DNA from: Acidobacteriaceae bacterium
Lineage (GTDB): Bacteria; Acidobacteriota; Terriglobia; Terriglobales; Acidobacteriaceae
NCBI GenBank assembly: GCA_003140075.1
Contig: PLIO01000142.1
Span: 26,856-90,855, forward strand
DNA: 64,000 nucleotides
Direction: 5' to 3'
Below are positions 12,964 through 34,012 of the stretch, piece by piece; position 1 is the first letter of the stretch; every line of letters starts with the position of its first letter. The position numbers and the translations under genes are program-made. The notes beneath the pieces were generated by a model. That model was not told the DNA's origin, ran no database searches, and saw nothing but the letters and a program-made list of their open reading frames with translations.

Positions 12964-13983
12964 ATGTCCCAGGTAGCTTTGATGAATTGGTCCGAACAGG
13001 AAGTATTGGTCACCGGCGGGACGGGTTCGTTCGGGAAGAAGTTCGTCGAAATCATGCTGCGGGAATATCATCCCAAGCGGCTGGTCATTTTCAGCCGCGA
13101 CGAACTGAAGCAGCATGACATGCGTGCCGCCGGCTTCGACCACGCCAGCCTGCGCTATTTTATCGGGGATGTGCGCGATCCAGCCCGCTTGCTGCGCGCT
13201 TTTGCCGGGATCACAGTCGTCGTGCACGCGGCCGCGCTCAAGCAGGTTCCGGCCTGCGAATACAATCCCTTCGAAGCGATTCAGACCAACATCATGGGCG
13301 GCCGCAACGTGATCGATGCGGCGATCGACCGCGGCGTTCACCGCATCCTCGCTCTCAGCACCGACAAGGCGGTAAACCCCGTCAATCTCTACGGAGCCAC
13401 CAAGCTGTGCGCCGAAAAAGTGTTCGTTCAAGCGAACGCCTATGCCGGGGCGCAGGATACTCGCTTCAGTTGCGCCCGCTATGGCAATGTTGTCGGCAGC
13501 CGCGGCAGCGTTATTCCCGTCTTCGTGGAGCAGCGCAAGCGGGGCCGGATTACGATCACCGATCCTCGTATGACCCGTTTCTGGCTCACTCTGGAGCACG
13601 GCGTGCGTTTTGTAATCCGCTCGATTGAGCAGATGCACGGCGGCGAAATTTTTGTGCCCAAGATTCCCAGCATGCGGTTAGTCGATCTGGCCGAGGCCGT
13701 CGCTCCGGGATGCGCCGTGGAGTACATCGGCATTCGGTCCGGAGAGAAATTGCACGAGGTCCTGCTTTCCGAAGATGAAGCGCGCACCGCAGTGGAAATG
13801 GATGATATGTATATCGTCCAACCGTCGCATCCCTGGTGGAAAAAAGGAAACTGGGTTCACGGCCGGGAACTGCCGCCGGGTTTTCGCTATACCAGCGACA
13901 GCAACGAACAGTGGCTGAGCCACGAGCAACTCCAGGAACTGATTGAGCCCGGAGCCACGGCAAAGTCGCGGGTACCTGCGTAG
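12964..13983 (+). CDS. pseB: UDP-N-acetylglucosamine 4,6-dehydratase (inverting), PseB
   Basis: First enzyme of pseudaminic acid synthesis: removes water from UDP-GlcNAc and inverts C5, giving a 4-keto-6-deoxy-L sugar nucleotide. 339-aa extended SDR with TGGTGSFG (near residue 18), HAAALKQVPACEYNPFEA and the active-site block with Tyr143-x3-Lys147 (YGATK). The KQVP and EYNPFEA segments are characteristic of soluble inverting dehydratases (PseB/FlaA1) rather than retaining membrane enzymes. First gene of the nonulosonate operon, with a good AAGGA ribosome site; the pseC gene follows within 50 bases. Confidence 0.9.
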   Translation: MSQVALMNWSEQEVLVTGGTGSFGKKFVEIMLREYHPKRLVIFSRDELKQHDMRAAGFDHASLRYFIGDVRDPARLLRAFAGITVVVHAAALKQVPACEYNPFEAIQTNIMGGRNVIDAAIDRGVHRILALSTDKAVNPVNLYGATKLCAEKVFVQANAYAGAQDTRFSCARYGNVVGSRGSVIPVFVEQRKRGRITITDPRMTRFWLTLEHGVRFVIRSIEQMHGGEIFVPKIPSMRLVDLAEAVAPGCAVEYIGIRSGEKLHEVLLSEDEARTAVEMDDMYIVQPSHPWWKKGNWVHGRELPPGFRYTSDSNEQWLSHEQLQELIEPGATAKSRVPA

Positions 13984-14028
13984 ATTGCCGTGTCGAGGCC
14001 AGAACCTCCGCCAAGCGAGATTATTGCT

Positions 14029-15243
14029 ATGCCTGTGACCACAACAACGACCCAATCATTACTCGCGATCGACGGCGGAACTCCCGTGCGGAAGACGCTT
14101 CTTCCCTACGGCCGGCAGTCGATTGGAGAAGATGACATCCAGGCTGTCACCGATGTCCTGCGCTCCGATTGGCTCACCACGGGCCCGAAAGTAGCGGAGT
14201 TCGAGGAAGCGTTCGCGGCCTGGGTTGGAGCCAGGTATGCCGTGAGCTTCAGCTCCGGCACGGCGGCATTGCACGGCGCGGCCTTTGCCGTCGGACTGAA
14301 ACCAGGCGACGAAGCCCTCACGACTCCCATGACGTTTGCCGCCACGGCGAACTGCGTGCTCTACCAGGGTGCGACTCCGGTTTTTGCGGACGTGAGCCCC
14401 GATACTCTCAACCTGGATCCGCAGCAAGTCGCAGCGCGAATCACGGCGCGCACGCGCGCGCTTCTTCCCGTGGATTATGCCGGCCATCCGGCAGATCTGG
14501 ATGCGATCATGGAGCTCGCCGAGCGGCACGGACTGATTGTGATCGAAGACGCCTCGCACGCGCTGGGCGCCGAATACAAGCACCGGCGCACCGGCAGCAT
14601 CGCCCACATGACCGTCTTCAGTTTTCATCCCGTGAAGCACCTTGCCACTGGAGAAGGCGGCATGGTGACGACCGATCGCACCGATTGCGCCGAGGCGCTG
14701 CGGCGGTTTCGCAATCACGGCATCTCAAGCGACGCGCGGCAACGCCAGGCCGACGGGCAGTGGCACTACGAAATGGTCCTGCTCGGTTTCAACTACCGGC
14801 TCACCGATATTGCATGCGCGCTGGGACTGTCACAACTGAAAAAGCTGGAGCCGAATCTTTCGCGCCGGCGGGAGATCGCGGCTCGCTATTCGACTGCGTT
14901 CAGCGATCTTGCCGGCGTAACGCTCCCTGCGGTTCGAACCGACGCAAACCCCGCTTGGCATCTTTATCCCATCCGTCTCAATCTGGAAAAGCTAAGTGCG
15001 GACCGACGCCAGGTCTTCCGCGCATTGCGGGCGGAAAATATCGGTGTCAACGTTCACTACATTCCCGTACATCGCCATCCCTATTACCGCGAGCGCTTTG
15101 GATATCGCGGAGGCGAGTATCCCATCGCCGAGGACGCCTACGAGCGGCTGATCAGCCTCCCGATGTTTCACGCGATGAGCGACCAGGACGTGGAAGATGT
15201 CATCACGGCGGTAAAGAAGATCATGGTAGCGTTTGCCGTATGA
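14029..15243 (+). CDS. pseC: UDP-4-amino-4,6-dideoxy-N-acetyl-L-altrosamine transaminase, PseC
   Basis: PLP-dependent DegT/DnrJ/EryC1 aminotransferase, about 404 aa, that adds the 4-amino group to the PseB product. Seen: SSGTAALHGAAFAVGLKPGDE, VIEDASHALG, the Schiff-base lysine in FSFHPVKHLATGEGG (Lys203 counting from this start), and the GFNYRLTDIACALG and VHYIPVHRHPYYR segments typical of PseC. I chose ATG 14029; a GTG at 13990 would add 13 residues. Ends with an ATGA overlap into the next gene, implying translational coupling. Confidence 0.9.
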   Translation: MPVTTTTTQSLLAIDGGTPVRKTLLPYGRQSIGEDDIQAVTDVLRSDWLTTGPKVAEFEEAFAAWVGARYAVSFSSGTAALHGAAFAVGLKPGDEALTTPMTFAATANCVLYQGATPVFADVSPDTLNLDPQQVAARITARTRALLPVDYAGHPADLDAIMELAERHGLIVIEDASHALGAEYKHRRTGSIAHMTVFSFHPVKHLATGEGGMVTTDRTDCAEALRRFRNHGISSDARQRQADGQWHYEMVLLGFNYRLTDIACALGLSQLKKLEPNLSRRREIAARYSTAFSDLAGVTLPAVRTDANPAWHLYPIRLNLEKLSADRRQVFRALRAENIGVNVHYIPVHRHPYYRERFGYRGGEYPIAEDAYERLISLPMFHAMSDQDVEDVITAVKKIMVAFAV

Positions 15244-16259
15244 ACGCGGTGCCGGTCCCCTTCGCTCAATACTCGGTGCTTGTAGCTGGCGCGGGGTCGA
15301 TTGGGCGTCGTCACATGGCGAACCTCCGACAGTTGGGAACGAGAAGGCTAGCCGTCACCGATCCCGATGCCAGCCGCCTTCAACCCATCGTGAACGAGTT
15401 AGGCCTTCAGGGTTTCGCCAATTTCGAGGAAGCGCTCTGCACGTTCAAGCCGGATGTGGTTTTGGTTTGCACTCCTCCTGTCTATCATGTCGAGCAGGCT
15501 TTGCGCGCTCTGCGGAGTGGCGCCGATGTATTTATTGAAAAGCCTCTCAGCAACCGTCTCGATGGAGTCGGCTCACTCCAAGTCGAAGCGGCGAAACTCC
15601 GGCGCGTGGTGCATGTTGGATATAACCTGCGCTTCAATCCTGGCATACAAACGCTCAAGCGATTAGTCGAGGAAGGTGTTGCCGGCCGTTTTTTGTGGGC
15701 GCGCGCAGAGGTGGCGCAGTACCTTCCCGATTGGCGTCCCTGGCAGGACTATCGCCAGAGCTACACCGCACGCCGCGAGTTGGGTGGCGGCATCATCCTG
15801 GATGCCTCGCATGAGATCGACTACATCCTGTGGCTTCTGGGACCGCCGCGCGAACTCACTTGCATGGCCGGGCAGGTCAGTGGCTTGGAGACGAACGTCG
15901 AAGATTGCGCGACCATCCTGATCCGTTTGCGCTCCGGCGCCCAGGCCGACGTACACATGGATTTTGCCCAGCGGACTGCCTCCCGCTCCTGCGTGCTGGC
16001 GGGAGACCGCGCCCGGCTGGAGTGGAACCATGCTCGCAATCAAGTGGAAGTTATTCGGCCAGAAGGTCCGCCCGAAATCATAAATTACGACTTCGAGCCC
16101 AATCAGATGTATCTTGCGGAGCTGGAGAATTTTTTTTCCTGCGTACACAACCGGGTGACCTCGAACCACAGTTTGGCCGAATCGGAGTTGACTCTCACGG
16201 TCGCGCTGGCCGCCTTGACTTCAGCCTCCGAGCAAAAGTGGGTGAGCTTTGAGCGGTAA
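15240..16259 (+). CDS. Gfo/Idh/MocA-family oxidoreductase
   Basis: 339-aa NAD(P)-dependent sugar oxidoreductase. Rossmann motif VAGAGSIGRRHM near residue 15, EKPLS near residue 100 (the conserved EKP with the active Lys), and a C-terminal sugar-binding domain with GGGIILDASHEIDYILWLLG. The substrate is unknown; the family reduces or oxidises sugar nucleotides or free sugars. It starts in an ATGA overlap with pseC and runs into the first cytidylyltransferase, so it belongs to the nonulosonate operon although it is not one of the six canonical Pse enzymes; similar genes do occur in nonulosonate and surface-glycan loci. Confidence 0.85.
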   Translation: MNAVPVPFAQYSVLVAGAGSIGRRHMANLRQLGTRRLAVTDPDASRLQPIVNELGLQGFANFEEALCTFKPDVVLVCTPPVYHVEQALRALRSGADVFIEKPLSNRLDGVGSLQVEAAKLRRVVHVGYNLRFNPGIQTLKRLVEEGVAGRFLWARAEVAQYLPDWRPWQDYRQSYTARRELGGGIILDASHEIDYILWLLGPPRELTCMAGQVSGLETNVEDCATILIRLRSGAQADVHMDFAQRTASRSCVLAGDRARLEWNHARNQVEVIRPEGPPEIINYDFEPNQMYLAELENFFSCVHNRVTSNHSLAESELTLTVALAALTSASEQKWVSFER

Positions 16260-17010
16260 TCTGATCGCCATTATTCCGGCCCGCGGCGGCTCGAAGCGGC
16301 TTCCGGGAAAGAACGTGCGGCCATTCTTCGGACACCCCACGCTGGCATATTCGGTTTCGGCGGCTTTAAACAGCGGGCTGTTTGCCGAGGTGATCGTGTC
16401 TTCGGACGACCCTGCTATCGGCCGCATTGCAGAGTGGTATGGCGCCACTTTCGTGCTTCGTCCGCCCGAACTCGCCAGTGATTCTGCGCAGCTTGTCGAC
16501 GTGGCCCGCCACGTTCTTGTTGTCCTGCGCAGTCGAGGCATAGAACCCGATGCCATTTGCCAGTGCATGCCCAACTGTCCCCTGGTGCGCAGCGTCGATA
16601 TTGTCGAGCACTGGCGTATGTTCAATAGCGGCGACCGTCTTTTTCAAATCTCCGTGATCCCTTATCGAGGCGTGTATCCGCATTGGGCAGTAGTCTCCGA
16701 TGAGCAGCAACGCGGACGCTGGCTCTTCGGGAATCCGAGCTTGGTCAGGAGCCAGGATCTACCGTCGACATTTTGCCCGACGGGTGCGATCTGGTGGGCG
16801 CGTACGAAAGACTTTCTTGCGCAGAACGCTTTCTATGGCTCTCCGTTTCATCTCGCGCCGATGGATCCGAACCGCGGGATCGACATTGACGATGAAGAGG
16901 ACCTCAAACTGGCGGAGCTTCTGGTTCATGGATTGACGGTGCGAAATGGCTCGTCTCCGTTGGAACCGGCCAATCGCGCGGCGTATGCGCCGGGGAACTC
17001 GAATGGCTGA
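16249..17010 (+). CDS. pseF: CMP-nonulosonate cytidylyltransferase (PseF-like)
   Basis: 253-aa acylneuraminate cytidylyltransferase that would activate the finished sugar as a CMP derivative. Seen: IIPARGGSKRLPGKNVRPF at the N-terminus (nucleotide-binding loop), LAYSVSAALNSGLFAEVIVSSDD, YGATFVLRPPELASD, and the terminal metal/sugar block GIDIDDEEDLKLAE. The ALNSGLF and RPPELASD stretches resemble PseF. Starts with TTG, overlapping the previous gene by 11 bases, and overlaps the next cytidylyltransferase by 8 bases. Assignment as the Pse rather than another nonulosonate enzyme is an inference from operon position. Confidence 0.75.
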   Translation: MSGNLIAIIPARGGSKRLPGKNVRPFFGHPTLAYSVSAALNSGLFAEVIVSSDDPAIGRIAEWYGATFVLRPPELASDSAQLVDVARHVLVVLRSRGIEPDAICQCMPNCPLVRSVDIVEHWRMFNSGDRLFQISVIPYRGVYPHWAVVSDEQQRGRWLFGNPSLVRSQDLPSTFCPTGAIWWARTKDFLAQNAFYGSPFHLAPMDPNRGIDIDDEEDLKLAELLVHGLTVRNGSSPLEPANRAAYAPGNSNG

Positions 17011-17701
17011 ACGAATGCTCTGCACCATCCCAGCGCGCGCCGGCAGCAAGCGCCTGCCCGGAAAAAATCTGCGTCCTCTGGCGGGCAAGCCGCTCATCGC
17101 CTATACCATCGAAACCGCGCGGCAGAGTGGACTTTTTGAGGACGTGTATGTTTGCACCGAAGATAAAGAAATCGCTGAGATCGCGCGCGCCTGCGGCGCA
17201 AGCGTGCCGATCCTGATGCCGCCAGAATTATGTGGCGATCTCGTCGCCTCGCACATTCCCTGCCAGCGCTTGGCTGCACATCTCGCCGGGCTCGGCCGCC
17301 CCACAGATACGCTAGTATGCCTTCAGCCCACATCGCCGCTGCGCAGCGTCGAGGACTTAACAACCGCTGTGAATAAGTTTCAGAGCGGTGATTTCGATTT
17401 CCTCGTAAGCGTGACGCCGGTGGATCCGCACGACTTCCATTGGGCGGTGGTGCCGGATGGCGACGATTATTGGCATATGTACTTCGGCAACAAATATCTG
17501 ATGGAGCGTCCTCTCCTGCCGCCGGTGTTTCGCCCCAACGGGTCCATCAAAATTGCCCGCCTGCCGGCGCTGGCGCGGGTTGGTCACTTTTTCGGAGAAC
17601 GCATGGGCGTGGTGGAGACTCCTCCGGAGCGATCCGTTCATGTGGCTTTGGAGTTCGATCTCAAGCTGTGCGAACTGATCCTGGCGGAGCGAACGGCATG
17701 A
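17003..17701 (+). CDS. Second acylneuraminate cytidylyltransferase-family protein
   Basis: 232-aa nucleotidyltransferase of the same superfamily as its upstream neighbour: TIPARAGSKRLPGKNLRPL, AYTIETARQSGLFEDVYVCTED, LQPTSPLRS, and a C-terminal FDLKLCELIL. It lacks the DIDxxEDL block seen in the first copy (it has VALEFDLKL), so its metal site or substrate probably differs; it looks closer to NeuA/LegF-type enzymes. Starts at ATG 17003 inside the end of the previous gene and ends in an ATGA overlap with the SDR gene. It could activate a different sugar acid or an aminosugar phosphate. Confidence 0.75.
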   Translation: MAERMLCTIPARAGSKRLPGKNLRPLAGKPLIAYTIETARQSGLFEDVYVCTEDKEIAEIARACGASVPILMPPELCGDLVASHIPCQRLAAHLAGLGRPTDTLVCLQPTSPLRSVEDLTTAVNKFQSGDFDFLVSVTPVDPHDFHWAVVPDGDDYWHMYFGNKYLMERPLLPPVFRPNGSIKIARLPALARVGHFFGERMGVVETPPERSVHVALEFDLKLCELILAERTA

Positions 17702-18471
17702 AGGGACTCAAGGACCGCGTTGCGCTCGTTACCGGAGCCACAGGTTTGCTGGGAAGCGCGATCGCGACCCGTCTGGCCGCGGAGCAGGCCACCGTTGTCA
17801 TCGCCTCTCGTGACTCTTCAAAAGCCGAGCAGTGGGTGCAACGGCAGGAGAAAACCAGCGGGAGATACCTTCCCGTGCAGCTCGATTTGGCCAGCGAGCC
17901 GAGCATTCGAACCTGTCTCGACCGCATCGTCGAACAGGCCGGAGTACCGACGATCATTGTAGCCAATGCCTCCCTCCGGGAGGGCGTGGGCGTACCCTTT
18001 GAAAAGCTTACGCACGATTCCTTTACGAACCTGTTTGAAGTTGATATCGCAGGCCATGTGTTGCTGCTGCGGCACAGCGTGGATCGTCTGGCAGGCCAAC
18101 CTGCGAGCATAGTGTTTCTATCCTCGATTTACGGGCAAGCGGGAGTGGACCATCGCATTTATCCGGAAGGAATGTTGCCGACGCCGGTGCAATATGCGGC
18201 TGTGAAGGCAGCCGCCGAGGGCGCAACACGCTGGTTGGCCGCCCTTTGGGGTGAGCGGGGAGTGCGGGTGAACGCTCTCGTTCCCGGCGGAGTGGCTTCC
18301 GCACAGCGGCAGTCCCAGGAGTTTGTGAAGAGATATTCCGAGAAGACCATGCTCCGGAGAATGGCCACGGCTGAAGAAGTGGCGAGCGCGGCCGCATTTC
18401 TCGCGTCTGACGAAGCTTCTTACATCACCGGGCATTGCCTGGTGGTGGATGGCGGACTGACCGCCTGGTGA
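17698..18471 (+). CDS. SDR-family oxidoreductase (PtmA-like position)
   Basis: 257-aa classical short-chain dehydrogenase: TGATGLLGSAIA cofactor motif near residue 12, SSIYG serine, and Tyr166-x3-Lys170 (YAAVK), ending in the usual C-terminal GHCLVVDGG. In Campylobacter-type flagellar glycan loci a similar SDR (PtmA) sits with the nonulosonate genes and acts on the sugar precursor; that function is an analogy here. ATGA overlap with the upstream cytidylyltransferase. Confidence 0.82.
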   Translation: MKGLKDRVALVTGATGLLGSAIATRLAAEQATVVIASRDSSKAEQWVQRQEKTSGRYLPVQLDLASEPSIRTCLDRIVEQAGVPTIIVANASLREGVGVPFEKLTHDSFTNLFEVDIAGHVLLLRHSVDRLAGQPASIVFLSSIYGQAGVDHRIYPEGMLPTPVQYAAVKAAAEGATRWLAALWGERGVRVNALVPGGVASAQRQSQEFVKRYSEKTMLRRMATAEEVASAAAFLASDEASYITGHCLVVDGGLTAW

Positions 18472-18476
18472 ATTCC

Positions 18477-20246
18477 ATGAGAGTCCTTCTGATCGATCCT
18501 CTCGATACTGCGGATGCGGGCGCATGGGCCGGCGAGCGCTGGGATCGGATCGTGGACCTCGGAATGGGCGGGAAGAATACCTACGCGCGCTGGCGCCGCC
18601 AGTTCCAGTGTCCGGTGACCACGCTGGATTCCCTGCGGAATGATTTCGACACTTTTCGCCGGGTGCGTGAGTTGCTGGGCTTGGGATGCGGGAGGCTGGT
18701 GGACGAGTACGGTCTGGATTTGTGGGAGATCATGTCGATTCTCCTGCACGCGGAGATGGAAGCGCTGGTCGTGTTGCAGATACTTGCGCAGACGCTTGGC
18801 TCCAGCGATCAAGTGTATGTTTCGCGTCCCGGGCTTCACGCCAGCCTTCTGCAGCACTTGCTCCCCGCTCGGGTGAACATTTTTCCCTTGCAGCGGGGAG
18901 CACAAAAAGGAGGTCTGGCGCACTATCTGCGGGTTTTCAACAAACTTTCGGTGCCGCAGATCATGGACGTTCTCTGCGACAAGTACGACGGCGGGTATCA
19001 ACTTCGTGGACACTTCTCCCGCAAACGCCGTCATTCCGCGCGGCCGGTGGTCCTGCTTCCCACGGCATATATAAATGTTTCGCGAACCGGCATCGCCTAC
19101 GCGAACACTTTTCCCGAGGAAAACTTTCTCTTGCTTGCGACCCGGCGAAGCGGGTGGATGGAGAATCTCCCGCGAAATGTAAGCGCCGCGTGGCTGTCTT
19201 CGTATGCCTCGCTGCGTGATCGCAGCGCTGAGAATGCGGAAATGGAGGGCCGGTGGCGGCCTCTGCTGAAGGAATTGAGAAGACTGCCGGAATTCGAGAC
19301 TCTACATCGCCTGGGATATCTGGACGTTGTTCCGATGTGGTTCCGTCGCGGACTCGACGTTCGCGACTCCTGGCGCAACGTTCTGGATACCGAACCGGTG
19401 CAGGCGGTGCTGTGCGCCGACGACAGCAATCCCAATTCCCGGATTCCAATGCTCTTAGCGCAAGGTCGCGGCTTGCCGAACATTGCCTGCCATCATGGAG
19501 CCCTCGATGGCCGTTACATGTTCAAGCGCAGCTACGGGGACATCGTCTGGGCTAAGGGAAAAATGGAGCAGGATTATCTGGTGCGGAGATGCGGAGTGCC
19601 CGCCGAAAAAGTCGAAATTGCGGCTCCAGCGTTGCCGGCGAATTGGCACGGGTCAGGGAAGTCGCGCCCTCCAGTTCTGCAGCCACACCTTCTTTTCATC
19701 TCGGAAGCGTCGGATGTGGGGGGTGGAAGGCCAGAGGAGTTTTACAAGGATCTCTTGCCTCCTCTCGCGGACCTGGCGTCAGCTCATGGCCGCGAACTGA
19801 TCGTGAAGTTGCATCCGGCGGAAAGCGAACGCGAACGCGCTGGCACGCTGGCCCGCATACTTTCCCCGCAACAAAAAAGCGTCACGCGCATCGTCAGCGG
19901 CCCGCTCACTGAGGATCTATTGGCGAACGCTTGGTTCGGGATCACGATACTCTCCACCGTCGCAATTGAATGCGCCATTCGCGGGATTCCCTGTTTCTTG
20001 TGCAAGTGGCTGGAATTCTGGCCTTATGGGTATGTGGAGCAATTCATCCGCTTCGGAGCGGGCATCGGTCTGAATGATCCGGGCGAGATCGCGAAGATTC
20101 CAGAATATCTGCAGCACCCTCCGGGCGCGACAGATGTTCTGGAGAATTGTTGGCGTCCGGCCGCTGCGGGACGTTTACGGGAGCTGATGACCTCTTCGCG
20201 AAGAGAATGTTCGCCGGAAAAGTGTGCGACGACGACGATGCGTTGA
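18477..20246 (+). CDS. Putative GT-B-fold transferase of the nonulosonate operon
   Basis: 589-aa protein that I cannot assign to a named family. Its C-terminal half looks like a GT-B transferase of the CDP-glycerol glycerophosphotransferase/capsule type: GRELIVKLHPAESERER (HP motif) near residue 440 and ILSTVAIECAIRGIPCFL near 500. The N-terminal half has no recognised motif. Start at ATG 18477, five bases after the SDR stop, so it is translated with the Pse genes. A nonulosonic-acid transferase using the CMP-sugar is a reasonable hypothesis because no other candidate lies in the operon; it is not proven by sequence. Confidence 0.6.
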   Translation: MRVLLIDPLDTADAGAWAGERWDRIVDLGMGGKNTYARWRRQFQCPVTTLDSLRNDFDTFRRVRELLGLGCGRLVDEYGLDLWEIMSILLHAEMEALVVLQILAQTLGSSDQVYVSRPGLHASLLQHLLPARVNIFPLQRGAQKGGLAHYLRVFNKLSVPQIMDVLCDKYDGGYQLRGHFSRKRRHSARPVVLLPTAYINVSRTGIAYANTFPEENFLLLATRRSGWMENLPRNVSAAWLSSYASLRDRSAENAEMEGRWRPLLKELRRLPEFETLHRLGYLDVVPMWFRRGLDVRDSWRNVLDTEPVQAVLCADDSNPNSRIPMLLAQGRGLPNIACHHGALDGRYMFKRSYGDIVWAKGKMEQDYLVRRCGVPAEKVEIAAPALPANWHGSGKSRPPVLQPHLLFISEASDVGGGRPEEFYKDLLPPLADLASAHGRELIVKLHPAESERERAGTLARILSPQQKSVTRIVSGPLTEDLLANAWFGITILSTVAIECAIRGIPCFLCKWLEFWPYGYVEQFIRFGAGIGLNDPGEIAKIPEYLQHPPGATDVLENCWRPAAAGRLRELMTSSRRECSPEKCATTTMR

Positions 20247-20274: not shown

Positions 20275-21774
20275 GTGGGTGAGGGGACGCTCTTAATTCG
20301 CGCAGACGCCAACGTTGCCATGGGGACGGGGCACGTGATGCGGTGTCTCGCTCTGGGCCAGGCATGGCAGGACGCTGGTGGTCGTTGCGTTTTTGCGATG
20401 TCAGCATCGACGCCCGCGGTGGATCGGCGCCTTAAAGAAGAGGGGATGGGAATAGAACATCTCGATGTTGCCGCCGGGAGGCCGGAGGATGCGAAAGAAA
20501 CAGCGTATGTTGCCAGTAAGAAGGCGGCCGAATGGATCGTCGTCGACGGCTACCAGTTCGACTCGGAGTATCAATCGGCGATCAAGGCGGCTGAATTCAA
20601 ATTGCTGTTCATCGACGACAATTCCCAGGCAGGACCTTACAGAGCTGACCTAGTCTTGAACCAGAATACGCACGCAAGATCAAGCTTCTATGCGAAGAGT
20701 GAGCCCTCGACGCGATTACTGCTCGGGCCTCGCTACGCCCTGCTTCGCAGGGAGTTTCGCGGCTGGCGTAACTGGCAGCGCGAGATTCCCGCCGTAGGGC
20801 GAAAGATCTTGGTCACGATGGGTGGCAGCGATGCCAACAATCTGACCGCAAAAGTGCTCGATGCGTTCCGGGAGCTTTCCCGTCCGAACCTTGAAACGGT
20901 CGTCATGGTCGGAGGCAGCAATCCGCATTTGTGCTCGCTAAAGGCGTCGATTCAAAAGGAATCGATGCGTTTGATCACGGACGCGACCAACGTGCCGGAG
21001 CTGATGGCGTGGGCCGACGTTGCGGTTGCTGGGGCCGGCACCACATTCTGGGAGATGTGCTTTCTTGGTTTGCCGGGCATTCTGCTGGTGCTCGCGGAGA
21101 ATCAGACGCATGTGGCTGAGACCGCCGGCAAAATGGGGATCGCCTGCAGCCTGGGCAATGCGCCAGACGTCAGCGTGTCCACGATCGCCGGAAAGCTTGC
21201 GGCGTTGCTCGACTCACGAGATGCCAGAATGAGCCAGTCCGAGAAGGGGCGAAAGTTGGTGGACGGCCGGGGCGCGGAGCGGGTGGTTGCGTTTTTATCA
21301 GGTCTGGAGTTGCGGCGTACGGTGGCCTCCGATTGCGAGGTGTTTTGGGAGTGGGCGAATGATCCGGAGGCGCGAGCTGCTTCCTTTAACGGCAAAGTGA
21401 TCTCGTGGGAAGACCACTCGCAATGGTTTCGAGCCAAGCTGGGCGATCCGCAAGCCCTGTTCTACACGGCGAACAAAGATGGCCAGCCAGTGGGGGAGGT
21501 TCGTTATCAAATCAGCGGGAAGCGCGCGGTGTTGTCGATCAGCTTGGGTGAGAGATTTCGAGGGCGCGGCTGGGGCCAGAAGATCCTCGCAGTCGGCGCC
21601 GAAAGGGTTTTCCAGGACACCGAAGTTGAGTTCATCGATGCCTACGTCAAGCCGAGCAACCAGGCGTCGCTAAAGTTGTTTGCCGGCGCTGGTTTCCAGC
21701 GATTCCCGTCGGAAGTAGTCGAGGGACAGGAGGGTGTCCACTTCGTGCTGGAGAGGCATGATCGAAGCCTTTGA
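20275..21774 (+). CDS. pseG: PseG-PseH fusion: UDP-sugar hydrolase plus N-acetyltransferase
   Basis: Two Pse enzymes in one chain of about 499 aa. Residues 1-340: PseG, which releases UDP; GTGHVMRCLALG with the catalytic-type His (His20 here), GSDANNLT, and AGAGTTFWEM. Residues 345-495: a GNAT acetyltransferase like PseH (N4-acetylation), with VFWEWANDPEARAASF, GEVRYQ, the acetyl-CoA loop RGRGWGQKIL and NQASLKLFAGAGF. Usually these are separate proteins. The start is uncertain: GTG codons at 20224, 20248 and 20275 are open; the last puts the His where PseG proteins have it. Overlaps the next gene by 4 bases (ATGA). Confidence 0.88.
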   Translation: MGEGTLLIRADANVAMGTGHVMRCLALGQAWQDAGGRCVFAMSASTPAVDRRLKEEGMGIEHLDVAAGRPEDAKETAYVASKKAAEWIVVDGYQFDSEYQSAIKAAEFKLLFIDDNSQAGPYRADLVLNQNTHARSSFYAKSEPSTRLLLGPRYALLRREFRGWRNWQREIPAVGRKILVTMGGSDANNLTAKVLDAFRELSRPNLETVVMVGGSNPHLCSLKASIQKESMRLITDATNVPELMAWADVAVAGAGTTFWEMCFLGLPGILLVLAENQTHVAETAGKMGIACSLGNAPDVSVSTIAGKLAALLDSRDARMSQSEKGRKLVDGRGAERVVAFLSGLELRRTVASDCEVFWEWANDPEARAASFNGKVISWEDHSQWFRAKLGDPQALFYTANKDGQPVGEVRYQISGKRAVLSISLGERFRGRGWGQKILAVGAERVFQDTEVEFIDAYVKPSNQASLKLFAGAGFQRFPSEVVEGQEGVHFVLERHDRSL

Positions 21775-22577
21775 TGGGATGTGAGCGGACGTTCCACACT
21801 GCCGCAAGCGATATAGTGAAGATTGCAATCTCACAACCGGGGTACCTTCCGTGGGCCGGATTCTTTGACCTGATCGATCAGGTTGATCAATTTGTCCTGC
21901 TGGATGATGCGCAGTTCGTGAAGCAATCGTGGCACCAGCGCAACCGGATCAAGTCTTCGACCGGCCTGCAATGGCTGACCGTGCCGGTTGTTTTTCGAGG
22001 ACGCCTGGGACAGCCGCTCTGCGAGGTGGAGATCCGCGAGCCGCAGTTCTGGCGGAAGCACCTGCGCAGCGTTGAGGTGAACTACGGCAGGGCTCGATAC
22101 TTTGAGGACTATTTCCCGCAACTCAAGGAAATCCTGGAGAAGCCGCGAGAAAAGCTGATTGATCTCAATCTAGCTCTCGTGCAGTGGCTTGCAGGCGAGC
22201 TTTCGATCAAAACTCCGATGGTGCGATCTTCAACTTTACACTTGGAAGGAAATCGGTCTGGACATCTGGTGGCGGCGTGTGAACGGCTGGGGGCGACGGA
22301 TTATCTCTCTCCTCACTCGGCGACCTATCTGCTTGACGATCTGGACATGTTCGCGGAAGAAGGCATCGCAGTGCATTTTCAAAATTACAACTGCCCGGAA
22401 TACGAACAGCGCTTTCCCCCGTTTCTGCCGTACGCTTCGGTGGTCGACCTGCTTTTTAACGAAGGCCCACAGTCCGGGGATATCATGCGCAAGGGACGCG
22501 GAACGCCGTTGACTCCCGATCAGGTCCGCGCTGCCGTCGAGAAGATGAAGCAAGAGCGAGACATCCCGCGAATATGA
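21771..22577 (+). CDS. WbqC-family protein
   Basis: 268-aa protein of the WbqC-like family: KIAISQPGYLPWAGFFDLI at the start, LDDAQFVKQSWHQRNRIK, and LNLALVQWLAGEL. WbqC-family genes are found in O-antigen and nonulosonate clusters and are thought to be transferases acting on the sugar's amino groups, but the reaction is not settled. The ATG at 21771 overlaps pseG-pseH; a GTG at 21816 would give a protein beginning exactly at the conserved KIAISQP, and is an equally good start. Ends in ATGA overlap with pseI. Confidence 0.83.
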   Translation: MMGCERTFHTAASDIVKIAISQPGYLPWAGFFDLIDQVDQFVLLDDAQFVKQSWHQRNRIKSSTGLQWLTVPVVFRGRLGQPLCEVEIREPQFWRKHLRSVEVNYGRARYFEDYFPQLKEILEKPREKLIDLNLALVQWLAGELSIKTPMVRSSTLHLEGNRSGHLVAACERLGATDYLSPHSATYLLDDLDMFAEEGIAVHFQNYNCPEYEQRFPPFLPYASVVDLLFNEGPQSGDIMRKGRGTPLTPDQVRAAVEKMKQERDIPRI

Positions 22578-23620
22578 AAATCGGACGCCGAAATATCGGT
22601 CCGGAACATCCTGTATACGTGGTCGCGGAGCTGTCGGCAAACCACAATCAGGACTTCGACCACGCGGTGCGCATCATCGAAGCCGCCAAAGAAGCTGGCG
22701 CCGACGCCGTCAAGCTCCAAACCTACACGCCTGACACGATCACCATCGCCAGCGATCGCGAGGAATTCCTCGTCAGCGGCGGCACCCTCTGGGATGGACG
22801 CAACCTGCACGATCTCTACGCCGAGGCCTTCACACCCTGGGAATGGCAACCGAAGCTCAAACAAGTTGCCGAAGATCTGGGGATGGATTGTTTCTCCAGC
22901 GCCTTTGATTCGACGGCGGTAGATTTCCTGGAGGAGATGGGCGTTCCGGCTCACAAGGTCGCTTCGTTCGAACTGGTCGACATTCCTCTCATCCAGAAAA
23001 TGGCGCGTACCGGCAAGCCGCTCATCATGTCCACCGGCATGGCCACGCTGGATGAGATCGAGGAAGCGCTGCAGACCGCTCGCGGCGCTGGCGCAACGCA
23101 GATCGCTTTGTTGAAGTGCACCAGCGCGTATCCCGCGCCCGCCGAGGATATGAACCTGCGCACAATTCCCGAGATGGCGCGAAGGTTCGGTGTCCCGGTG
23201 GGATTGTCCGACCACACCATGGGGATCGCGGCGCCCCTGGCCGCGGTTGCGCTGGGCGCATGCGTCCTCGAAAAGCACCTCACCTTGTCGCGCTCCACTC
23301 CCGGCCCGGACAGCGCCTTCTCGCTGGAGCCGCACGAATTCAAGGCGATGGTGGATGCGGTACGGATCGCCGAAAAAGCTCTCGGCGAAGTGCACTTCGG
23401 GCTGAGTGCCAAAGAACAAGCCAGCCGTAGGTTTCGCCGGTCTCTGTTCGTAGTGGAGGACGTGAAGAAGGGCGAGATTTTCACCGCGGCCAATGTCCGC
23501 TCCATTCGTCCCGCACACGGGCTGCACACGCGGCATCTGCCGGAAGTGCTGGGCCGGAGCGCCGCCCAGGAGATCAAGCGAGGCACTCCCCTGAGTTGGG
23601 AACTTGTCGTCCGATCATGA
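22574..23620 (+). CDS. pseI: Pseudaminic acid synthase, PseI
   Basis: 348-aa NeuB-family enzyme that condenses the hexose derivative with phosphoenolpyruvate to make the nonulosonic acid. N-terminal TIM barrel with AELSANHNQDFDHA, ADAVKLQTYTPDTIT, KVASFELVDIPLI, STGMATLDEIEEAL and KCTSAYPAP, then a SAF-like antifreeze domain from about residue 285 (RRSLFVVEDVKKGEIFTAANVRSIRPAHGL). The ASFEL(V/T)DIPL and SDHTMG segments match PseI rather than NeuB/LegI. Last gene of the overlapping operon. Confidence 0.92.
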   Translation: MKIGRRNIGPEHPVYVVAELSANHNQDFDHAVRIIEAAKEAGADAVKLQTYTPDTITIASDREEFLVSGGTLWDGRNLHDLYAEAFTPWEWQPKLKQVAEDLGMDCFSSAFDSTAVDFLEEMGVPAHKVASFELVDIPLIQKMARTGKPLIMSTGMATLDEIEEALQTARGAGATQIALLKCTSAYPAPAEDMNLRTIPEMARRFGVPVGLSDHTMGIAAPLAAVALGACVLEKHLTLSRSTPGPDSAFSLEPHEFKAMVDAVRIAEKALGEVHFGLSAKEQASRRFRRSLFVVEDVKKGEIFTAANVRSIRPAHGLHTRHLPEVLGRSAAQEIKRGTPLSWELVVRS

Positions 23621-23747: not shown

Positions 23748-24620
23748 GTGGCCCTTACGAAGCTCGAGACCAAGACCGGTTCCAGGCCAGATCCCAACAT
23801 CCTGACTTACAACGCGCCGGCAGTGGCGGAGTACTATGCGACGCTCGACTATCTAACGCCTTGCGAGAGTCTGTTGTTCGATCAGTATCTCCGGTCAGGT
23901 ATGACGATTCTGGACCTCGGGGTTGGAGGGGGACGAACCACCTCTTATCTTTCGTCGATTGCCGGCCGCTATGTAGGGGTTGACTACGCGGCGCAGATGA
24001 TTGCTGCCTGCCGAAAAAAATTTCCTCGGCTGGAGTTTGAGGTGGCCAACGCCGCCGATCTATCGAATTTCGTTTCAGCGAGCTTTGACGCGGTCGTAAT
24101 GGCTTTCAACGGCATGGATTATGTGATTCCGAACGAATCCCACTTTTGCGCGTTACGAGAAATTCGGCGCGTGCTCAAGCCCGGCGGAATTCTGATTTTC
24201 TCCTCGCACAATCCGCGATCGATCTGGATGCGTCCATCGTGGAACCCGCGGCGCGTGCAAGACATGGCACAGACCATGGCGGGGAACAACTCCGTTCTGT
24301 TTCGGCCATTGCTCTGGTCCTTGACCGCAGTGCGCTTGATTCTGGCGGGACTGCAAGCAACCCTGCACTCGTTCAGTCGGGCAGCGCGCAGGCTGCCAAC
24401 GCGAACCTTCTGGCTGGGCCAGGGCTATTTGCTGGATCCCGCGCATGGCGGCCTGAAGACTCATTATGCCGTCCCTGAAAAAGTCGAGCATGAACTCGGC
24501 GGCTTCGGCTTCCAGCTATTGCGTGTGCTCGGGGATGACTACCCGCGGATGAGCCGGCCATATGTGACAGACTGGTACTACTATGTGTTCTCAAGAATTG
24601 GAGCGACGGGAGAGAAGTGA
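23748..24620 (+). CDS. Class I SAM-dependent methyltransferase
   Basis: 290-aa methyltransferase with motif I LDLGVGGGRTT near residue 55, YVGVDYAAQMI (acidic ribose-binding position), and LKPGGILIFSSHNPRS after the core. Its substrate is unknown; in this setting a sugar or nucleotide-sugar hydroxyl is likely. GTG start. Separated from pseI by 127 bases, so perhaps a new transcription unit, and overlaps the following acyltransferase by 4 bases. Confidence 0.82.
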   Translation: MALTKLETKTGSRPDPNILTYNAPAVAEYYATLDYLTPCESLLFDQYLRSGMTILDLGVGGGRTTSYLSSIAGRYVGVDYAAQMIAACRKKFPRLEFEVANAADLSNFVSASFDAVVMAFNGMDYVIPNESHFCALREIRRVLKPGGILIFSSHNPRSIWMRPSWNPRRVQDMAQTMAGNNSVLFRPLLWSLTAVRLILAGLQATLHSFSRAARRLPTRTFWLGQGYLLDPAHGGLKTHYAVPEKVEHELGGFGFQLLRVLGDDYPRMSRPYVTDWYYYVFSRIGATGEK

Positions 24621-25750
24621 GTCTGCGCATCGTTCTGCATAGGCAAATTCCCGACGATCCCAGGCTGCTGCGGCAGTGGAACGACGTGGCGTTGCAGATG
24701 GAACGGCCGCAGGTGTTTTACACGTGCGAGTGGGCGCTCGCCGTGCAAACAGCTTATCGAGCTTCTCTCAAGCCTCTGCTCTTTCTTGGTTACGACGGAG
24801 ACGATCTGATCGGTGTGGCCTCTCTGGCTACGGATATGGCCGGAAAGAAGATAGGCTTTCTTGCCGCTACTACGGCGGACTATTGCGATTTCCTGACATC
24901 GCCGCCAGGGCGAGAGGAGTTCATCGATGCTGTTCTCGACGAACTGCGGAAGACCGTGCCGGCCGATATTTCGCTGGCGAATCTTCCGGCCGATTCCAGG
25001 ACACCGGAAGCGCTCCGCGCGGCGGCAGAAAAATATGGCTTTCACATTTACATGCGTCCCGCATACTTGTGCGCCCAAGTGGAGTTGGGCACTGGAGAAC
25101 AGCGCCAGGAGTTGAAGGCTTCCCTCGTAGGCAAGAAAAAGCTTCGCCGCTATCTGCGAGCTATGGAGCGCGAAGGGCCGGTCACGTTTGCTCATTTGCA
25201 GTCGCTCCAGCAGATCGAGGCGGCCTTGCCGGGATTCGCCGACGCGCATGTGGCGCGTTTCGTCGCGACCGGGCGCGTCAGTAGTCTAGCCACACCGGAG
25301 CGGCGGCAGTTCCTCCAGGAACTGGCCCGGCGATTCTCCGGCGCTGGGGTGGTCACGCTAAGCTTGCTGAGTATTGGAGACCGCCCAGTGGCGTGGAACT
25401 ACGGATTTCGATTCCACGGCGCCTGGTTTTGGTATCAGCCTACATTCGACAGCCGGCAGGAAGAGAATTCTCCCGGCCACTGCCTGCTTTCGAGAATCGT
25501 GATCGAAGCCTGTGACATGGATGAAATGCAGGTGGTTGATCTAGGCCTCGGTGCGGAAGGCTACAAAGAGCGGTTCGGAAACAGCACGCGCCAGACGCTC
25601 TATGTCACCGTGACCAGGTCGTGGCTCCGCCACCGGCTGGAAATGTTGAAGTATCAGATGGCTATTGCCCTGAAACGATCGCCGAAAGTCGAGTCCGCAG
25701 TCCGCGCTATGCAAAGGCGAGTGCAGTCTCTCCGCCGACCTCAACCATGA
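24617..25750 (+). CDS. FemAB/CelD-like GNAT acyltransferase
   Basis: 377-aa protein with the double-GNAT (FemAB/CelD-like) pattern: FYTCEWALAVQTAYR near residue 35, central KKKLRRYLRAMEREG, and the C-terminal DLGLGAEGYKERFG typical of the family. Such enzymes in polysaccharide loci acylate sugar amino groups. It starts with GTG in an overlap with the methyltransferase, so the two are probably co-translated. The C-terminal 30 residues are basic. Confidence 0.78.
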   Translation: MSLRIVLHRQIPDDPRLLRQWNDVALQMERPQVFYTCEWALAVQTAYRASLKPLLFLGYDGDDLIGVASLATDMAGKKIGFLAATTADYCDFLTSPPGREEFIDAVLDELRKTVPADISLANLPADSRTPEALRAAAEKYGFHIYMRPAYLCAQVELGTGEQRQELKASLVGKKKLRRYLRAMEREGPVTFAHLQSLQQIEAALPGFADAHVARFVATGRVSSLATPERRQFLQELARRFSGAGVVTLSLLSIGDRPVAWNYGFRFHGAWFWYQPTFDSRQEENSPGHCLLSRIVIEACDMDEMQVVDLGLGAEGYKERFGNSTRQTLYVTVTRSWLRHRLEMLKYQMAIALKRSPKVESAVRAMQRRVQSLRRPQP

Positions 25751-31949: not shown

Positions 31950-32011
31950 TATACTGGCTGCAACAAATCAGTTGAATGGTCAAGGCGTTTGCAGGTTCCG
32001 GAGAACTCAGT

Positions 32012-33922
32012 ATGGCGGATCGACTAGAGTCGCGCACCATAGATGAGGGAACGACTCAACGGCTTTCCGGCCGGCGCGTGGAGATCCTCGAGTGCACTTT
32101 GCGCGATGGCAGCTACGCCGTCGATTTTAAGTTCACCGAAAACGATACCGCGATTCTGGCGGGTGTTCTGGGACGGCTGGGTTTCCGCTGGATTGAAGTA
32201 GGCCACGGCGTAGGCTTAGGCGCTGCGCAGGCCGGCAAAGGTACGATGCCAACCTCCGATGAGCGCCTGATTGAAGCTGCAAAACGCGCCGCACCCAACG
32301 CCCAGATCGGCTGCTTTTTCATTCCCGGCATCGGCACCGCCCGCCAGCTGAAGTCCGCGCGCGCAGCCGGCCTCGATTTTGTCCGCATCGGCTATAACGC
32401 TCCGGAAATCGAAGACGCTTTTTCCTACTTAACTCTGGCCAAAGAATTAGGCCTCAAGCCCTGTCTGAATTTCATGAAGACTTATGGCATCTCGCCCGCC
32501 GCATTCGCCGAGAAGGCCAGAGCCGGCGCCGCGGCCGGGGCGGATGTTGTTTACTGCGTCGACTCCGCGGGCAGCATGCTTCCCGAAGACGTGCGCAAAT
32601 ATCTTAGCGCCGCGCGCGACCGTTGCGAGTGCGAATTGGGCTTTCACGGCCACAGCAATCTGCAGTTCGCCGTCGCCAATAGCGTGGAAGCGGTTCGCTG
32701 CGGCGCCAGCTTTATCGATACCACGCTCTACGGATTAGGACGAAGCGCAGGTAACGTGCCCACCGAAGTCGCGGTGGCAGTCTTCAATAATCTCGGGATC
32801 GAAACCGGCATCGATCTCTTCGACGTCATGGACGCCGCCGAAGAATTCATGGGCCCCCTGATGTCACAGATGCAGCTTTACGACATGATGTCGGTGGCGA
32901 TGGGATGCAGCCAGTTTCATTCTTCGTTTCTGCCCAAGGTCACCGCTGCCGCTCGCCAGCATGGAGTCGAGTTGCGCCGGCTAGTCGTTGCTATGGGCAA
33001 GCTCGATCCCGTCAATCTCGACGAAGAAAATCTGAACCGCGTGGCCGCTAACCTTCCGAAAGCCACGCCGGGCAAAGCGCGGGAAATGCTGACTTCGTTT
33101 TTCGTGCCCGGCATTTCCGCGCACAGCATCAGCAGCTCACTTTCGGCAGTGCAGTCGTTGGTTGACGGCATGACCGTTACCTGTGCCAAACGCCGCGCCC
33201 GCCCTGTGCTCGAACTCGTCGCCTCGGAATCGCCTGCGCCAGCTTTAGTTTTGCCCGACCTCGTGCTTGCCGAAGGTCCGGTCGTGCTCGGTCGAGTCGT
33301 CTACGGTTCGTTCGAGGTACTGGAGCAAGTCTTACGAATGACCGGCAACAGCATTCCGTTATATCTGAACGACAAGGACGGAGGCTCGTGGGCTGCGGAG
33401 TGGCCTGCGTCGCTGAAAGAAATTGTCGGTGCGGAAAGAATCCTGCCGATCCGTTCGAAGCGTCTGTTTGCCGGCTACATGGAAGAGGTTGTGCTGGCCA
33501 CGGCCCATCGCCACGGCGACTTCTGCATGATGATCTACGGAAGTCCGAGCCGTGCCCTGCTGCAAAATTGCTGCGAGACTTTCAGTAACGTTGTGGTGCA
33601 CGGAGAATTACCGCCAGAGGCTCCGGCAAACTGTTGGCAGATGGCGGATTTCTCCGACCGCATGCATTTCGATTTAGGAATTGGGGTTGCGCTGCTTCTT
33701 TGTCCGCCGAGCGGAGCCGACTCCTCTTCGATCGACCAGCTGCTGTTGCCCGAAGGAGTAGTGATCACCGCCGGCCACTTTCCCCGCTTCGAGACGGATA
33801 CCCCGGGCCGCGCGGTTCTGCGGCTCGATCCCAACCAGGCCTACCGTGGCCAGATCGATCGATGGGTGGCCATCTCGAATCTCATGAAATCGGCGCAACC
33901 CAGTCCCTTGGCGATGCAATGA
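32012..33922 (+). CDS. DRE-TIM aldolase-like protein with unknown C-terminal domain
   Basis: 636-aa protein. Residues about 25-290 are an HMG-CoA-lyase-like/4-hydroxy-2-oxovalerate-aldolase-like TIM barrel: ECTLRDGSYAV (the LRDG metal/catalytic loop) and GFHGHSNLQFAVAN with metal-ligand His212 and His214. Such enzymes cleave or form a hydroxy-keto acid from pyruvate and an aldehyde. After a helical linker to about residue 400, a further 230-residue region (from LVLPDLVLAEGP) matches nothing I know. I chose ATG 32012 because GGAG lies 8 bases before it; an ATG at 31976 is upstream. Head of the module with the ligase, cyclase and ACP. Confidence 0.75.
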   Translation: MADRLESRTIDEGTTQRLSGRRVEILECTLRDGSYAVDFKFTENDTAILAGVLGRLGFRWIEVGHGVGLGAAQAGKGTMPTSDERLIEAAKRAAPNAQIGCFFIPGIGTARQLKSARAAGLDFVRIGYNAPEIEDAFSYLTLAKELGLKPCLNFMKTYGISPAAFAEKARAGAAAGADVVYCVDSAGSMLPEDVRKYLSAARDRCECELGFHGHSNLQFAVANSVEAVRCGASFIDTTLYGLGRSAGNVPTEVAVAVFNNLGIETGIDLFDVMDAAEEFMGPLMSQMQLYDMMSVAMGCSQFHSSFLPKVTAAARQHGVELRRLVVAMGKLDPVNLDEENLNRVAANLPKATPGKAREMLTSFFVPGISAHSISSSLSAVQSLVDGMTVTCAKRRARPVLELVASESPAPALVLPDLVLAEGPVVLGRVVYGSFEVLEQVLRMTGNSIPLYLNDKDGGSWAAEWPASLKEIVGAERILPIRSKRLFAGYMEEVVLATAHRHGDFCMMIYGSPSRALLQNCCETFSNVVVHGELPPEAPANCWQMADFSDRMHFDLGIGVALLLCPPSGADSSSIDQLLLPEGVVITAGHFPRFETDTPGRAVLRLDPNQAYRGQIDRWVAISNLMKSAQPSPLAMQ

Positions 33923-33923
33923 A

Positions 33924-34012
33924 GATCGGCCAAACGAAGATCGGCGAAATCACGATCAGCGAAATGCGATCACCGAAATGACGATCGACGAAATAACGAC
34001 CCGCGAAACGAT
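33924..34012 (+). repeat. Tandem array of imperfect 15-base repeats
   Basis: Six units of the form GATCNNCGAAATNAC (33924, 33939, 33954, 33968, 33983, 33998). The third unit has 14 bases. The array covers the gap between the aldolase stop and the ligase, including the ATG at 33978, and ends just before the next in-frame ATG at 34014. Confidence 0.7.

Follow-up and report, generated by a model that had tools for sequence, protein, structure and literature searches.

A PseG hydrolase and a GNAT acyltransferase of a separate clade joined in one chain in a pseudaminic acid operon of an Acidobacteriaceae bacterium

A pseudaminic acid (Pse) operon that seems to lack pseH raises the question of which protein carries out step 3 of the pathway, N-acylation of the 4-amino group of the sugar. 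The operon considered here lies on the + strand of a 64,000-nucleotide stretch of contig PLIO01000142.1 (the window; all coordinates refer to it), and encodes PseB for step 1 (12964..13983; TIGR03589, 487.4 bits against a cut-off of 407.75), PseC for step 2 (13990..15243; TIGR03588, 486.5 against 423.5) and PseI for step 5 (22574..23620; TIGR03586, 501.1 against 340.25). Two PseF-like cytidylyltransferases (16249..17010 and 17003..17701) score 167.3 and 119.7 bits, below the TIGR03584 cut-off of 205.7, and a Gfo/Idh oxidoreductase and an SDR belong to the same gene run. The gene at issue, at 20275..21774 (+), encodes a PseG domain followed by a GNAT domain, and is separated from the PseI gene by a gene for a WbqC-family protein (21771..22577, +; Pfam WbqC, 234.9 bits).

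Several neighbors of this gene invite separate comment. The tandem PseF-like genes may provide for two CMP-sugars, or one of them may be a repurposed enzyme. The 603-residue protein encoded directly upstream of the fusion (18435-20246) has a sub-threshold match to Pfam DUF6716 (putative glycosyltransferase) and no NCBIfam match at E<=0.01. Farther along, near glycosyltransferase genes, 31976-33922 encodes an HMGL/4-hydroxy-2-oxovalerate-aldolase-like protein (its C-terminal part of ~280 residues has no Pfam match at E<=0.001), and the next gene (33978-35615) is of the AMP-binding, acyl-CoA-ligase-like kind.

That the fusion is real, and that it is part of a Pse operon, is confirmed. A single frame of 499 codons runs from a GTG at 20275 to 21774 without an internal stop, and its 499-residue product matches the PseG profile and then a GNAT domain (by NCBIfam and Pfam search and in an AlphaFold model), just as a preliminary description of this DNA had proposed; the two motifs quoted there, GTGHVMRC (which contains His20) and RGRGWGQK (starting at Arg429), are both present. 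The program-made open reading frame begins farther upstream, at 20224, inside the preceding gene; the start at 20275 is backed by a genome of the same genus (G029), where the gene also begins with GTG and its product opens with the same VxEGTLLIRADAN. A frameshift or assembly artefact, the event that would have split the chain, is ruled out by the continuity of the frame: the only same-genus relative that looks split is G029, and its apparent split in the search is due to a stretch of Ns in that assembly where the two halves meet. Substitutions relative to three relatives (L071, L073 and L075) are most frequent at third codon positions across the junction (residues 321-360; 40 codons in each comparison), as they are in both flanks, with an excess that is clear in L073 and L075 and slight in L071; that third positions lead in all three fits one translated frame.

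The N-terminal half is a PseG domain by a curated standard. Residues 6-282 (20290..21120, +) align with positions 3-278 of the 280 of TIGR03590, the PseG equivalog, at 225.5 bits, well above the NCBI cut-off of 153.55, and the domain reaches to about residue 340. Solved relatives detectable by sequence at E<=0.001 are two, both from Campylobacter jejuni: PseG (3hbm, 1.1e-12) and, weakly, PseH (4xpk, 1.9e-4). Foldseek comparison of the AlphaFold model places the PseG structures 3hbn and 3hbm at the top of its matches; the likeness extends to fold and to the positions of three residues, whereas the C. jejuni protein is a single-domain enzyme with only 22-23% identity in structural alignment. Those residues, His20 (20332..20334, +), Tyr93 and Asn276, align with His17, Tyr78 and Asn255 of 3hbm, which we take to be active-site residues of C. 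jejuni PseG, and are invariant in 49 fused proteins.

The C-terminal half (residues about 344-495; 21304..21759, +) is a GNAT N-acyltransferase domain, scoring 44.4 bits on Pfam Acetyltransf_3 over residues 344-475 (cut-off 25.4). The preliminary description called it PseH-like, and this stands as to its place in a Pse operon and its probable role. It does not stand as a family assignment: on TIGR03585, the PseH equivalog with a cut-off of 93.1, the whole protein scores 45.9 bits (residues 349-477) and the C-terminal half alone 49.6 bits. The highest TIGR03585 score of any fused domain in the 80 genomes or records searched is 68.0. Ranked by profile among solved structures, PseH comes 17th for this half, after phosphinothricin- and spermidine-type acetyltransferases; Foldseek returns AAC(6')-Ib and spermidine-type acetyltransferases, with PseH absent from the 50 matches listed.

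On the question of which ACETYLTRANSFERASE, an unrooted tree of 93 GNAT domains gives a separate clade (support 99/99, stem 1.04) that gathers 59 fused domains, six stand-alone domains of the fused type and one unlabelled row. Ten of 11 PseH-type rows (so defined by more than 100 bits on our own profile) form another clade (96/93) together with the PseH-type fusion of Rhizobium tumorigenes; the eleventh (L158, 79.5 bits and thus under the NCBI cut-off) is placed elsewhere, and the PseH of L147/L156, which passes that cut-off with 112.6 bits, stands next to the PseH clade in a weakly supported position (81/21). A later survey by phylum points the same way. More than 90 residues follow the PseG domain in 35 of its 83 loci, and 34 of these tails (two of them had been profile seeds) score higher on the fused-clade than on the PseH-type profile (the lowest 82 against 28 bits), with none the reverse; the remaining tail (L199) is a formyltransferase. 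The GNAT domain thus falls outside the curated PseH family, in a clade whose members, in the loci surveyed, are for the most part fused to PseG and occasionally encoded on their own within the PseG locus. The notion that the fused half is simply PseH is rejected as a matter of membership, on score and clade, and retained as a likely role: since it falls below the cut-off and outside the PseH clade, the domain is PseH-like in its probable role and is not a demonstrated PseH.

What the domain has in common with PseH, and what it does not, can be read at individual positions (mapped to H. pylori PseH numbering by motif spacing, and to that extent inferred). The GNAT fold and the W-x-N and H-x-x-W/F positions are shared with the TIGR03585 family (C. 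jejuni 4xpk, H. pylori), as is, probably, the slot in the pathway. A segment of particular interest extends from Ser465 to Phe469 (21667..21681, +); RimL-type enzymes presumably use a Ser near the position of Ser465. Phe469 corresponds to Tyr138, the proposed general acid of H. pylori PseH; the substrate contacts of that enzyme are His49 and Phe52, with Arg30 as a modelled contact (PMC4363471). At the Tyr138 position the fused domains have Phe in 58 of 59 cases and Leu in one, and the PseH-type rows have His in 10 of 11 and Tyr in one; Tyr is also found in the over-cut-off PseH of L147. Tyr is accordingly not universal in PseH either, and, with most sampled PseH-type rows carrying His, the change from Tyr to Phe is not claimed as proof of a different mechanism. 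The Arg30 position is Arg in all 11 PseH-type rows and variable in the fused domains (Ala in 37, Arg in 10, others in 12), with Ala361 in the window protein. The other two contacts are largely kept: the His49 position (His381) is His in 56 of 59 fused and 10 of 11 PseH-type domains, and at the Phe52 position (Trp384) a Trp is found in 58 of the 59 fused domains and in all 11 PseH-type rows. Substrate-side features are thus partly common with PseH, and the catalytic side is different.

The preliminary description also held that PseG and PseH are usually separate proteins, which understates how often they are joined. The survey of homologues proposed there retained 80 loci from 577 confirmed matches, a sample biased toward full-length matches; both halves lie in one frame in 53 of them, which are spread over many phyla of bacteria and include four genomes of archaea (one of the 53, L078, is cut by a contig end). 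Searches with the TIGR03590 family are less biased. With the genome at the center of each search left out (two of the three centers had been chosen from fused loci), fusions of the fused-clade type account for 9 of 29 PseG loci in Pseudomonadota (10 of 30 with the center; best 30 of 53 genomes matching at E<=1e-40), 9 of 22 in Cyanobacteriota (9 of 23) and 14 of 29 in Bacteroidota (15 of 30; best 30 of 34 matches). In the phylum of the window, nine of 396 genomes exceed the PseG cut-off: two have the window-type fusion (the window's own and G351), three a PseG-formyltransferase, one a PseG-ATP-grasp protein and three PseG alone. The PseG-GNAT fusion is an ordinary, widespread form. Changes between states on a FastTree tree of 119 PseG rows (unrooted, with long branches, so that the counts are rough) come to 24 for fusion against PseG alone and to 25 for fusion against all other rows, 13 of the latter forced by starred branches, and imply that fusion and separation are labile.

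One might expect fusion and PseH to exclude one another, and the counts at first suggest as much: a PseH above the cut-off is found in one of 55 genomes or records with a fusion (G512, which has both) and in six of 25 without, in a set of 80 that are related to one another, with many incomplete assemblies and with three of the 55 being single plasmid records. That inference is weakened by the other 19 of the 25 non-fused genomes, which also have no PseH above the cut-off, so that its absence is not special to fused genomes; four of the 25 have, in the locus, a stand-alone domain of the fused clade at more than 100 bits.

The two domains meet closely. The junction (residues 333-347; 21271..21315, +) consists of a helix (333-341) followed directly by the first GNAT strand (344-348), and the spacing from Gly333 to Arg347 varies among the 49 fused proteins only from 14 to 21 residues (median 16), leaving little room for a flexible linker. 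Structure prediction of the linker, as the preliminary description had suggested, yields none: the AlphaFold model (mean pLDDT 95.3, pTM 0.93, with the 49 fused proteins as input alignment) passes from one domain into the other, and its high pTM suggests that the two are held in a defined arrangement. Across the same 49 proteins the distances of the PseG and GNAT halves co-vary (r=0.60, a value reached in none of 1000 permutations). The further idea that the intermediate might be channelled from one site to the other is at most compatible with the two-domain model and with a junction that is short and varies little in length.

The same observations bear on whether the fusion might be nominal, the two domains being made as separate proteins by internal initiation or by processing. 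In-frame GTG or TTG codons do occur near the junction, at residues 328, 329, 337, 346, 350 and 356, and some PseG loci elsewhere carry a stand-alone gene for a GNAT of this clade. Against these stand the frame that stays continuous in 53 of 80 loci, the constancy of junction length and the pTM of the model, which together make separate products very improbable.

The reading that we prefer, with a probability of about 0.8, is of a bifunctional pseudaminic acid enzyme that would acylate the 4-amino group and then remove UDP. Step 3 would fall to the C-terminal GNAT domain, which would acylate UDP-4-amino-4,6-dideoxy-beta-L-AltNAc at its 4-amino group, most probably with acetyl donated by acetyl-CoA; in step 4 the N-terminal PseG domain would release UDP from the acylated product; and the sugar so freed would be condensed with PEP by PseI. 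(What we infer from sequence and model is the activity of each domain, the source of the acyl group and any coupling of one site to the other.) This reading draws on a PseG domain above its cut-off in one frame with a GNAT, in an operon whose PseB, PseC and PseI also exceed theirs; on the invariance of His20, Tyr93 and Asn276 and the presence of His381 and Trp384 at substrate-contact positions; on the co-variation of the halves; and on a RefSeq product name for the same architecture. It draws, too, on the genome (5.77 Mb in 276 contigs, contamination estimate 5.8), in which the fusion gene is the sole PseH match at E<=0.001, in agreement with the earlier remark that the acetyltransferase is present only as the C-terminal domain of this protein. 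With the content of the operon this accounts for steps 1-5, provided that the fused GNAT carries out step 3. Counted against the bifunctional reading are the missed PseH cut-off, Ala361 in place of Arg30 and Phe469 in place of Tyr138, the rank of PseH among solved structures, the 19 non-fused genomes that do without PseH, the co-occurrence in G512, and another GNAT-fold gene nearby (Acetyltransf_6, 24617-25750). A search of open-access PMC literature, in the portions of text available, found no assay of the fused enzyme or of any GNAT of its clade.

Two departures from the preferred reading concern the GNAT half. The GNAT half could perform step 3 with a different acyl-CoA (3-hydroxybutanoyl-CoA, for example), yielding a Pse with a group other than acetyl at N7. 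The clade is separate from PseH and has a different residue at the position of the proposed general acid, an acyl-CoA-ligase-like gene (33978-35615) is present in the window, and in Acinetobacter baumannii a closely related locus has psaG/psaH in place of psaD/psaE, with psaG/psaH going with acetyl or 3-hydroxybutanoyl at N7 (PMC6586298). On the other hand, the stand-alone A. baumannii partner (L152) is of PseH type and falls outside the fused clade, and the ligase-like gene, at a distance of 12 kb, may have another purpose; on balance a non-acetyl donor seems unlikely. The second departure assigns step 3 to an unlinked GNAT and has the fused domain modify an intermediate further along the pathway, or a different amino group. 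It would make sense of the missed cut-off and of the acetyltransferase-fold gene nearby, the extra SDR and Gfo/Idh genes suggest a modified Pse, and the many non-fused genomes without recognizable PseH make it evident that step 3 can be done by something that the model misses. This genome has no second PseH match, however, and related loci either have a PseH-type domain attached to PseG (R. tumorigenes) or encode PseH and PseG side by side (Peribacillus, Sinorhizobium meliloti, A. baumannii), so that this second departure is judged less probable still than the first.

An origin of the gene in a phage or plasmid was considered and rejected: of 50,697 phage records searched two match, neither covering 80% of the fusion protein, and all 54 matching plasmid records are below 60% identity to it. 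(A GNAT encoded in the immXl/immXu region of Rhizobium phage 16-3, DQ500118.1, 18315-18695, is weakly similar to the fused domain, with 27.7% identity over 27% of the query.)

The fusion is not new: it has been published, and RefSeq has a product name for it. In PMC7874193 a two-domain PseG/PseH protein in the Pse locus of Aeromonas caviae Sch3N is credited to Tabei 2009; as described there, it resembles the window protein in combining a PseG domain and a RimL-like acetyltransferase domain in one chain. The RefSeq bifunctional hydrolase/GNAT family N-acetyltransferase has the same domain order, a similar length (486 aa) and a GNAT half in the same clade, and its gene likewise shares an operon with those for PseB, PseC, PseF and PseI, but it is only 26% identical to the window protein and comes from a different phylum. 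Three public records annotate a fused protein simply as pseG (two of the fused clade, one PseH-type). Looser parallels also exist. The nucleotidase and N-acyltransferase of A. baumannii (psaD/psaE, psaG/psaH) are exchanged as a pair, comparable with the fused pair of the window, but are encoded by separate genes (slightly overlapping in L152, where the acyltransferase is PseH-type). A PseH homologue in the Pse cluster of Vibrio B9-25K2 is also one domain of a two-domain protein; its partner is a domain linked to lipid metabolism, and PseG is listed separately (PMC7371886).

GNAT domains of this clade are not the only modules attached to PseG. A genome of the window's genus has PseG with a RimI-like GNAT (L061; 39.2 bits, under the RimI cut-off), and R. 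tumorigenes (L154) has the PseH-type GNAT referred to above. Within the phylum of the window, three genomes have PseG followed by a formyltransferase domain (PF00551, cut-off 26.1) with 31.1, 32.6 and 37.8 bits (loci L017/L160, L019/L161 and L020/L162), as does a cyanobacterium (L199, 31.1 bits); an Opitutaceae record (L138) has a match below cut-off, at 16.9 bits. The frame of L017/L160 runs off the contig end and a separate GNAT is encoded near the fusion in L160, while the fusion of L161 is accompanied by relatives of PseB, PseC and PseI. A formyltransferase is a plausible candidate for the enzyme of step 3; no PseG-formyltransferase fusion was found in the accessible portions of open-access PMC literature. 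PseG is joined to an ATP-grasp domain in G335. In G193 (L028:1306-2787, -) the order is reversed and agrees with that of the pathway, a GNAT being followed by a PseG-like domain that scores 131.4 bits, below the PseG cut-off. Separately, a cytidylyltransferase (PF02348) shares a frame with a PseG-like domain, also below that cut-off, in L030:16-2535 (+) and L032:1222-3423 (-).

In A. baumannii the unfused psaD/E can give way to psaG/H, an exchange linked to the N7 group (PMC6586298). Taken with the varied fusions and their lability, this suggests that a hydrolase and its N-modifying partner may be retained as two matched enzymes. A more general proposal, offered tentatively and with the odds against it, is that PseG can be thought of as a carrier of exchangeable N-modifying modules, fusion having repeatedly joined the enzyme that sets the group on the 4-amino nitrogen to the hydrolase acting on what it makes. 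The modules would then comprise the GNAT clade described here (of which the window protein would represent the commonest type), the PseH-type and RimI-like GNATs, the formyltransferase and the ATP-grasp ligase. The 4-amino nitrogen of the sugar becomes N7 of the nonulosonic acid, and the module could predict what N7 bears: acetyl or another acyl group, formyl, or aminoacyl.

The fusion may explain how some Pse operons seemingly without pseH are nevertheless complete, the NCBI PseH model scoring this GNAT clade below its cut-off. The part worth following up is the variety of N-modifying domains on PseG: if these act at step 3, they would supply a rule for predicting, from sequence, the substituent that a pseudaminic acid bears at N7.
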